Shown here: positions 27,565-51,836 of the stretch, in pieces
How the letters are laid out: each line of letters opens with the position of its first letter
Numbering within the stretch: the first letter of the stretch is position 1
Assembly (NCBI GenBank): GCA_902783575.1
Contig: CACZRP010000090.1
Span: 1 to 64,000 of the forward strand
DNA: 64,000 nt
Direction of reading: 5' to 3'
DNA from: an uncultured Eubacteriales bacterium
GTDB lineage: Bacteria; Bacillota; Clostridia; Lachnospirales; Bianqueaceae
Program-made: the position numbers and the translations under genes
Notes under the pieces: model-generated
Databases searched by the model: none
The model's input: the letters and a program-made list of their open reading frames with translations, nothing else
Told to the model about the DNA's origin: nothing

Positions 27565-27594
27565 CCCCTGTTTCTGCCTTCCATTGTCCTCAAC

Positions 27595-27955
27595 GAGTTT
27601 CACATCTTCTGGCTATTCGCTGGGTTTTGTGAAACTCTTGTTTTTTGTTGTCACAAAACCCTGTATTTCAGCCTCATGTGTGAAAATCGGTCTGTCACAA
27701 AACCCGGCCCTCAGACCCGATCTGTGACAATCAGCCAGACGAGTTTCACAAAAAGCCATCCGGCTGCTTCTCAGTGACAAAAATAAAGGGCAAAACAGCG
27801 ATATTTAACGAAATAGCCTTATTTTTGTCACAGGAGAAGATCATCCGCCTCTCCTGTGACAGCATTCTGTCACAGGAAGACCAGACTGTTCATATATGTG
27901 AAACAAAATTGCTTTTTTGTCACTGGAGCATGAGTATTCACTCAATTTGTGATAA
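27595..27955. repeat. Array of 36-37 nt inverted-repeat units with TGTCACA/TGTGACA arms
   Basis: At least four clear units occur: 27598-27634 (TTTCACA/TGTGAAA), 27693-27729, 27826-27861 and 27868-27903 (TGTCACA with TGTGACA or TGTGAAA), plus degenerate ones at 27648-27684, 27744-27780 and 27918-27954. Some stems extend beyond the basic arms, as in the 13-bp stem GTGACAAAAATAA at 774-786 and 819-831 of this 27-kb stretch. There is no coding gene here. The architecture matches the arrays at 50161-50876. Confidence 0.75.
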
Positions 27956-28087
27956 TCAAGAATTCCAAAGAATCATTTCACCTTATGACGTCACCGGCAG
28001 TACTTGGACGCCAGGCCAAAACCCACGAAAAAGTAGACCACTGAAAAAGGGAATCCAGGTGGAAAAAGCCGACCTCGGCAGAAGTAT

Positions 28088-28263
28088 CCTTTGCTTGGCT
28101 TAATTATATAATGCCACAAGTCTTCCGCCTGTCAAGGCTTCATTCACTTCGTGAAGCAAAGCGAAGCTTCGAATTGCTTCACGAAGTGAATGAACCGCAA
28201 TGCGGCTGCGCCTTGACAGAGCAGGAAGATCTTGTGGCAAAGGTTCATTAAGCCAAGCAAAGG
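28088..28263. repeat. 176-bp interrupted palindrome
   Basis: Outer arms 28088-28104 and 28247-28263 are perfect 17-bp complements. Inner arms TGCCACAAG / CTTGTGGCA and CTGTCAAGGC / GCCTTGACAG follow, and the centre (about 28139-28194) pairs over 21 bp (TTCATTCACTTCGTGAAG and complement). The whole could fold into one long hairpin, or be a small inverted-repeat mobile element without a gene. Confidence 0.8.
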
Positions 28264-28364
28264 ATTTATAGGTTTCTTTGAAACCTGTTTTCACAAAATA
28301 TACCTGACAAATATTCAGCAATATAGCGAGATTGTTATTTTATTATTGCTCACTAAGGTCTTCC

Positions 28365-49965: not shown

Positions 49966-50038
49966 GGGGCATTGGCGCAGTTGGGAGCGCGCCTGAATGG
50001 CATTCAGGAGGTCAGGGGTTCAAGTCCCCTATGCTCCA
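49966..50038 (+). tRNA. tRNA-Ala (anticodon GGC)
   Basis: The gene has 73 nt: acceptor stem GGGGCAT / ATGCTCC with the alanine-specific G3-U70 pair, D-arm around GGCGCAGTTGGGAGCGC, anticodon stem-loop CCTGA-ATGGCAT-TCAGG giving GGC, and T-arm GGGGTTCAAGTCCCC. The 3' CCA is not encoded. A hairpin terminator follows. Confidence 0.95.
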
Positions 50039-50051
50039 CTTTTTATTGCTC

Positions 50052-50160: not shown

Positions 50161-50494
50161 TCGAGGAAATTTGCCATATTTATGAAAAATCCTCGATCGC
50201 CCGTTTTTTGTCGAGGATTTTTCACGTATGACGCAGTTTTCCTCGACAGCATTTTTATGTTTCGAGGAGATTTCAATTCTGAGGCAGTTTTCCTCGAACA
50301 CCAATCCACGTCAACTTGATTTTTTCGAGGAATTTTCCTGTATAGCTGAAAAATCCTCGAAGCCAGAGCCTCATGGCCTGGCTTCGAAAATCAGGATCGA
50401 GGAAAACTGCATGTGGCAGGAAATATCCTCGACAAAAAAAGAGAAAAAGTTCGCAAATTCGAGGAAAACTGCAAGTATCTGGAAATCTCCTCGA
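50161..50494. repeat. Array of six 36-nt inverted-repeat units, arm type TCGAGGA
   Basis: Units at 50161-50196, 50211-50246, 50262-50297, 50325-50360, 50397-50432 and 50459-50494 are each exactly 36 nt and begin TCGAGGA and end TCCTCGA. Inside, most share GATTTC after the left arm and GCAGTTT before the right arm; the last two units are in the opposite orientation, and units 1 and 4 carry TGAAAAA in place of GCAGTTT. Gaps are 14-36 nt. No coding gene is supported here. An extra 10-bp hairpin (TCGAAGCCAG) lies at about 50357-50386. Confidence 0.9.
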
Positions 50495-50542
50495 TTGCAT
50501 TGCTCTTTTACATACGGCGGTCTTCTTTACAGATGATGTCCG

Positions 50543-50876
50543 TAATGAAAAAATACTCATATCAGGAATGATTCATGATCGCCTCATTTTTGTAGTGAAT
50601 ATTTCACCCTACAGGCAGTTTATCATTACAGGATTTTTTTGAGTAATGATGATTTCACGCATGAGGCAGTTTCTCATGATCATCCGCCTGACGCAGCCTG
50701 CTTTTGTAATGAAGATTTCTTATATAGATGAAAAGTTCATTACAACAAGGCAGCCTCACCTGACTTAAAAAAACAAGATAGTGAGAAACTGCCAATATCA
50801 GGAAACCTACATTACGAAAAATAAGCAGAAAAAAGAAAAATAATGAAAAACTGCTTATATCAGGAAATCTTCATGA
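50543..50876. repeat. Array of six 36-nt inverted-repeat units, arm type TAATGA
   Basis: Units at 50543-50578, 50593-50628, 50644-50679, 50707-50742, 50779-50814 and 50841-50876 are each 36 nt with arms TAATGA or TAGTGA and TCATTA or TCATGA (the fifth unit ends imperfectly, ACATTA). The inner GATTTC and GCAGTTT blocks of the neighbouring TCGAGGA array recur in at least units 3, 5 and 6, and unit 4 has the TGAAAA variant. Orientation is mixed. Confidence 0.85.
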
Positions 50877-50951: not shown

Positions 50952-51836
50952 TTATTCCGGGTTGCGTCCATTGCAAAGATAAAAGACAGTCAGCAGACCC
51001 GGACCGCAGTGAGCGCCGATCACCACGCCCAGAGAAGTGATGGTGATCTCTCCCGCTTCCGGATGGGCCTGTTTAATTCCATCCCGGATGAAAGCCGCAT
51101 CCTCCCGGCAGTCCGCCTGAAGGATATGAATCCTTTTCCCGGAAATATCCTCACCGGAAAGGTCGTGCAGCACGCCGGACAGAATCGAGTTCAGCGCTGC
51201 CTTGCGGCCCCGGGCTTTCTTCACCACATCCAGAGTTCCTCCGTCCGGCACATACAGCACCGGCTTGATGTTCAGCAGAGAACCCACCAGCGCTGAAGCG
51301 TTGGACACACGGCCGCCCATTTTCAGATATTTCAGATCGTCCACTGTAAACCGGTGGGCGATTTTCAGTTTATTCTCTTCTCCCCAGCGGATGACTTCAT
51401 CAAAGCTCATGCCCTCTTCCATCCGGAGTATCATTTCCTCCACCAGCAGGCCCAGGCCGCCAGAGATGCAGCGGGTATCCATAACATACAGCTGCTGTGC
51501 GGGGAACTCGGTCCGGATCCGTTCTGCCGCCTCCGCGCAGTTGGTGTAGGAAGCGGACATTTTCTGGGACATATCCAGGAAGATGACATTCTTTCCCGAA
51601 GACATCAGCACCCGGAAGAAATCAAAGTATTCCTGTTCATTGATCATGGAGGTCTTTAAAAGATCTCCCCGGCGCATGCCCTCATATACCTTCTGTCGGC
51701 TCTCTTCTCTGCAGTCATCTTCAAAGAGCTGATCCCCCACCGTATAGGAATACGCGATAAAGGGAATCTGATGCTTATCCAGCCAGGTGCGGGGCAGATC
51801 GGAGGTGGAAGAAGTCGCAATAATATAATCAGCCAT
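50952..51836 (-). CDS. DegV family fatty-acid-binding protein (second paralogue)
   Basis: The 294-residue protein starts ADYIIATSSTSDLPRTWLD, with MSQKMSASYTNC, VMDTRCISGGLGLLV, LKYLKMGGRVSNASA and GAHCGPGLLTVFYL, all DegV family blocks. The sequence is clearly different from the copy at 24683, so the two may carry different fatty acids (FakB1/FakB2-like division). It has its own promoter and terminator. Confidence 0.9.
   Translation of the reverse strand: MADYIIATSSTSDLPRTWLDKHQIPFIAYSYTVGDQLFEDDCREESRQKVYEGMRRGDLLKTSMINEQEYFDFFRVLMSSGKNVIFLDMSQKMSASYTNCAEAAERIRTEFPAQQLYVMDTRCISGGLGLLVEEMILRMEEGMSFDEVIRWGEENKLKIAHRFTVDDLKYLKMGGRVSNASALVGSLLNIKPVLYVPDGGTLDVVKKARGRKAALNSILSGVLHDLSGEDISGKRIHILQADCREDAAFIRDGIKQAHPEAGEITITSLGVVIGAHCGPGLLTVFYLCNGRNPE

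Follow-up and report, generated by a model that had tools for sequence, protein, structure and literature searches.

Dispersed, helically phased arrays of 36-bp inverted-repeat units with alternative arm sequences in a Bianqueaceae genome

Between positions 50161 and 50876 of the window (the whole analysed stretch of 64,000 nucleotides from an uncultured Eubacteriales bacterium, contig CACZRP010000090.1) lie two non-coding modules of 334 bp, each composed of six units of 36 nt. Upstream is a tRNA-Ala(GGC) gene (49966–50039, plus strand) with its 3′ end towards the array, and downstream, convergent with the tRNA, an open reading frame (50952–51836, minus strand) for a putative DegV-like protein, a name read from the sequence, which has distant homologues in every searched genome except one. 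Module A (50161–50494, plus strand), of the TC class, has arms TCGAGGA/TCCTCGA and consists of exact TCGAGGA-N22-TCCTCGA units at 50161, 50211, 50262, 50325, 50397 and 50459. Module B (50543–50876, plus strand), of the TA class, has arms T[AC]ATGAA/TTCAT[TG]A, with TAATGA-type units at 50543, 50593, 50644, 50707, 50779 and 50841, and is separated from module A by a spacer of 48 bp (50495–50542, no strand). The twelve 36-nt units reported in the preliminary description were all recovered at these positions. For the TCGAGGA unit, allowing two mismatches, the chance expectation in the window is 0.33, and six were reached in none of 100 shuffles.

The two modules follow a common ruler, with start-to-start distances of 50, 51, 63, 72 and 62 bp (unit starts at 0, 50, 101, 164, 236 and 298). 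The mixed orientation and varying gaps that had been described are a misreading, as order, orientation and spacing are the same in both modules. The core proposed to be common to the two arm types is indeed present, and reads nATTTC-N9-GCAGTTT on one strand: the plus strand (rightward) for units 2 and 3 and the minus strand (leftward) for units 5 and 6; the other two, 1 and 4, are near-symmetric or mixed. Because of this reversal, each module is a quasi-palindrome in consensus, with units 1–3 facing units 5–6 around a central unit 4. In the aligned consensus of both classes the linkers carry T-tracts between units 1–2, 2–3 and 3–4, including a T6 tract in the first linker of module A (50197–50210, plus strand), and A-tracts between units 4–5 and 5–6. 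Homology between modules stops at about units 1 and 6. At the left edge of TA modules (50535–50542 in the window) the last bases before unit 1 are also conserved, GATGTCCG, from which the copied TA block may start some 8–14 bp ahead of unit 1.

In order to find further copies in the same assembly (2.5 Mb, 86% complete), the core pattern was searched with one mismatch allowed, giving 114 occurrences versus 2 for the reversed control, and the exact TCGAGGA-N22-TCCTCGA unit occurs 96 times. The genome-wide search irrespective of arm sequence that the preliminary description had suggested was performed with a covariance model of units 1–3, in which the arm letters were randomised yet kept complementary. 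It retrieved 28 modules at E-values of about 1e-14 or better, 17 of the TC and 11 of the TA class. This is a lower bound, since several modules sit at or near contig ends (C97, C100, C107, C108 and C92); some are truncated there, and two contigs start within a further TC module. Eight of the 11 TA modules adjoin a TC module in identical orientation. Each step of the ruler deviates by at most 1 bp in the 27 modules where the spacing was read, with the single exception of a TC module (C27; L045 3829–4151) in which the 72-bp step is 61 bp, 11 bp or about one helical turn having been lost between units 4 and 5 with all arms intact. The arms are thus not locus-specific, as had been thought, but family-specific, TCGAGGA recurring in 16 other full modules of the genome. 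The suggestion that arms changed together within an array holds for families, where one ruler and related cores are kept and the full set of 12 half-sites differs. A TC–TA pair is sometimes copied together with about 270 bp, in blocks of 1.1 kb. This additional stretch (L043 5120–5390 and L050 4905–5180) has an open frame of 54 codons in one copy that is broken in the other; this frame, peptide-like in appearance, was considered as an autonomous gene and rejected, given the stops in one copy and the lack of a Pfam match and of relatives.

The degree of conservation differs sharply along the modules. Pairwise comparison of nine complete TC modules gives a mean divergence of 0.26% for the arms, 32% for the cores and 38% for the linkers. 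Nearest TC pairs have 26–104 non-arm differences versus 0–1 at the 84 arm sites, so that 10–42% of the other sites differ while the arms are intact. Intact arms amid diverged cores and linkers are not the pattern expected of copies that decay after insertion, and the internal units are as conserved as the terminal ones. Conservation is far lower in the TA class (12% divergence in the arms versus 18–21% outside), and selection may be relaxed there. The covariation of arms anticipated in the preliminary description was checked in the TA class, and was not found: at arm position 2, the most variable (A or C), the two sides behave independently, and are paired in 20 of 54 units versus 27.1 expected under independence. 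As these variants are unmatched across the unit, the arm letters appear to matter half-site by half-site and pairing does not.

Gene calls around 16 arrays placed nine between convergent genes, six between codirectional genes and one between divergent genes. The neighbours are ordinary metabolic genes, and a common functional theme was discarded, the four GH3 genes among 30 neighbours being judged a chance occurrence. At one locus, between a MarR and a GH3 gene (C22), the congener G006 has the same gene pair with order and orientation unchanged; its intergenic region measures 226 bp and lacks an array, versus 1133 bp here. The junction with this array-lacking sequence lies about 25 bp from the module and fits either gain or loss. 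From this comparison, modules thus seem to come or go as blocks. A clean empty site was also sought at tex, tsaD and degV, where synteny is not kept. The modules have terminal inverted repeats and sharp ends, and their right half resembles an inverted left half. In 24 modules no target-site duplication was detected (no match of at least 4 bp within 3 bp of the edges; mean 0.00 versus 0.13 by chance), and no autonomous copy or transposase was found beside the arrays examined in this incomplete assembly.

The TC and TA classes are not the only families in this genome, which also has arrays with arms GTAGGAAG, TGTGA[AC]A, CCTTTGA and TTGTACACA, in a tally that is incomplete and thus a lower bound. 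The GTAGGAAG arrays (L052 3356–3634, L106 159–532 and L116 400–733) have six to eight 36-nt units at spacings of 42, 53, 42, 64, 42, 53 and 42 bp, and represent an independent family without the shared core. Run on an array-enriched sample of 593 kb from this genome, an array detector found 22 arrays of at least four units, and none in three Markov-shuffled copies or in a reversed, not complemented control of the same 593 kb. A second array is present in the window itself (27594–27960), with half-sites TTGTCACA/TGTGA[AC]A converging at 30–31 bp and the remaining steps being about 13, 50 and 52 bp; the same family is found in C92 (L053 3400–4200), C119 (L119 5900–6400) and C3 (L125 5400–5950).

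Congeners, sampled at 40–270 kb each, carry arrays with yet other arms: TTACGTA and TAATCTC in G002, TACATCC, AATCTTGTTAA and CTTGTCA in G004, and TAGCAAG, probably with AGACGCA and TGTATAA, in G005. No arrays were seen in the samples of G001, G003 and G006, nor in five sampled genomes of other genera, bar one weak irregular match. In G002 (L183/L207) the array behind tex has the palindromic arm TTACGTA; a TA–TC pair occupies this place in the own genome, and the next gene differs. The exact TC unit is absent from 145 relatives, bar one chance unit, and the arm-blind model found nothing certain either in 391 relatives, with the best eight candidates per genome scored, or in 19 relatives scored more fully. 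This model reaches the TC/TA type only, since sister species carry arrays that it misses. Over all families the only arm-independent inner feature is A/T-richness, AWYTSC being common to TC and TA alone.

In the regular families, converging and diverging half-sites alternate strictly, with 28–32 bp between converging half-sites and 11–15, 21–25, 29–36 or 43 bp between diverging ones, as in the series 28/14/28/25/28/14/28/36 and 30/23/30/13/30/23; the TGTGA-type arrays are less regular in geometry. Across 12 families in four species, the 35 distinct unit spacings concentrate near whole multiples of 10.5 bp (Rayleigh R of 0.715 and p of about 1.7e-8; this p value is indicative, as the list of spacings was compiled manually from the arrays detected, and those within one array are partly dependent on one another). 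The best period is 10.5–10.7 bp, and the family-weighted R of 0.72 was matched by none of 20,000 random sets.

Starting from the observed geometry, phasing, conservation and dispersal of the arrays, we propose, with somewhat more confidence than doubt, that a family of DNA-binding proteins, dimeric and of diversifying specificity, docks on them, and that the arrays spread as modules and are kept by selection. Each subunit of a sequence-specific protein would recognise a half-site of 9–14 bp (TCGAGGAnAWYTSC in TC, T[AC]ATGARnAWYTSC in TA), and a dimer would occupy the 36-bp unit, in which two half-sites converge at a distance of about three helical turns (28–32 bp between centres). Whole-turn spacing between units would place the dimers on one face of the DNA, where they may stack, or wrap about 330 bp that also bear A-tracts. 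The binding proteins would form a paralogous or fast-evolving family, because arm families and sister species use different half-sites. Modules would be copied between loci as blocks, mostly to gene 3′ ends, with selection then holding the half-sites and the ruler. Paired protein sites with half-sites about 29 bp apart, one of the roles raised in the preliminary description, are in our view the best-supported idea, the phasing of the spacings, the near-absolute conservation of TC arms and the freedom of TA arms from a pairing constraint all pointing in this direction. The role is likely architectural, in the form of a nucleoid or insulator-type complex between genes, which is suggested over control of single promoters by the position mostly behind 3′ ends and the chromosome-wide spread.

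The main rival explanation is a MITE-like non-autonomous element, in which each end has about three units bound by a transposase or recombinase, the arm families represent lineages that depend on different enzymes, and only copies with good arms move. It accounts well for the dispersal of 28 sharp-ended copies, for quasi-palindromic halves that look like long terminal inverted repeats, for the array-free locus of the congener (226 bp versus 1133 bp between the same two genes), for the absence of TC and TA arms from congeners and for the 1.1-kb blocks copied together, but not for the missing target-site duplications in 24 modules or the intact arms of old copies. Nearest TC copies that differ at 10–42% of other sites and keep their arms are hard to explain under decay after insertion, the internal units are conserved like the terminal ones, and neither an autonomous copy nor an encoded gene was found beside the arrays examined, the 54-aa frame next to two copies being without relatives. 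We consider this explanation unlikely, although it deserves serious weight. For the self-spreading palindromes envisaged in the preliminary description the evidence is divided: modules have been copied round the genome and one congener locus lacks the array, but there is no target duplication and no mobilising gene was found. REP or BIME-type repeats spread by a REP-associated (RAYT) transposase would likewise be short palindromic extragenic units in high copy number, with inverted arrangements and a bias to 3′-end intergenic regions. According to PMC3733652, REPs are palindromes of 20–40 bp, most of them tagged at one end by GTAG or CGTC; the TC and TA units begin with TCGAGGA and TAATGA and have no such tag, although a separate GTAGGAA family does start with GTAG. 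Their arms are conserved as letters and not as a compensated stem, and the six-unit ruler holds to the base pair and in phase with the helical turn, which leaves this origin very improbable.

RNA or single-stranded DNA hairpins at gene 3′ ends, acting as terminators, mRNA-end or processing signals, would be in keeping with the location of most arrays, with the 7-bp stem possible in each unit and with modules that fold far better than shuffles (z of −9.9 and −5.1). Strong predicted folding is expected from inverted repeats, and RNA would fit it too, but the unpaired TA position 2 argues against hairpins despite this folding, since arms vary there without compensatory changes. In addition, TC arms keep their letters and not merely their pairing, the spacing tracks the 10.5-bp turn of B-DNA, core units occur in both orientations, and there is no Rfam match. 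On the grounds of phasing, conservation in place and lack of compensation, double-stranded protein-binding arrays are preferred over hairpins, a role that the preliminary description had listed and that we now find improbable. Centromere-like partition arrays of the sopC or parS type, or decoys for the binding proteins of plasmids or phages, are the least probable of all. Arrays in which inverted sites are phased at roughly 43 or 53 bp do resemble plasmid centromeres such as F sopC, whose 12 repeats of 43 bp place inverted sites in tandem roughly every four turns of the helix. The likeness is one of working only, since sopC is a single plasmid locus of one specificity and the arrays described here are 28 dispersed chromosomal copies, within a set of many specificities, with no partition genes among the neighbours tested. 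Searches of 72,556 plasmids, 50,697 phage records and viral contigs likewise gave no match.

Two other known systems invite comparison with the proposed docking arrays. The res sites of the Tn3 family, and other multi-subsite recombination sites, have dimer-bound inverted half-sites in subsites of 25–34 bp, with spacing sensitive to the helical turn, and are alike in working only, having three subsites beside a recombinase gene and not six units in 28 copies with no recombinase gene among tested neighbours. The neisserial intergenic mosaic elements (dRS3 arrays) are also intergenic inverted-repeat arrays with constant arms and variable centres, but dRS3 is one 20-bp repeat, without a 36-bp unit, a six-unit ruler or a range of alternative arms. 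CRISPR shares the 36-nt repeat length and inverted ends, and was rejected because the units differ internally and occur in both orientations, and the linkers are conserved between modules rather than being unique spacers. Rfam covariance models matched one tRNA and one lysine riboswitch, and none matched the arrays. Two matches to the same arms in genome contigs of other species, Paenibacillus and Burkholderiales MAGs, were rejected as single chance units. A description of such arrays was not found in the literature covered, most subscription journals being outside it, and within these comparisons the arrays matched no known repeat or machine.

Dispersed repeats in bacteria are usually interpreted as hairpins or as remnants of transposons. 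The non-coding blocks described here each hold about 84 near-unchanged letters, together with a helix-set ruler, and from one family or species to the next the recognised letters are exchanged completely. More speculatively, and with doubt prevailing, the arrays could belong to a chromosomal system, so far seen in four species of a single genus, in which DNA-binding proteins of one family, with fast-changing specificity, would each assemble a fixed, helically phased nucleoprotein particle on their own dispersed arrays, architectural or insulator-like and with swappable recognition codes. If a protein family does read the arrays, they would form a new type of element that organises or insulates the chromosome, and the natural arm sets would offer a ready table for how a DNA-binding domain changes its specificity.

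A separate dispersed element is also present in the window (28086–28267), a near-perfect palindrome of about 150–180 bp (TCCTTTGCYTGGCTTAA...CCTGTCAAGGC...GCCTTGACAG...TTAAGCCARGCAAAGGA), MITE-like and often located beside an array. Further copies are found at L041 5518–5672, L053 4213–4355, L063 1–60 and L111 near 315–380.
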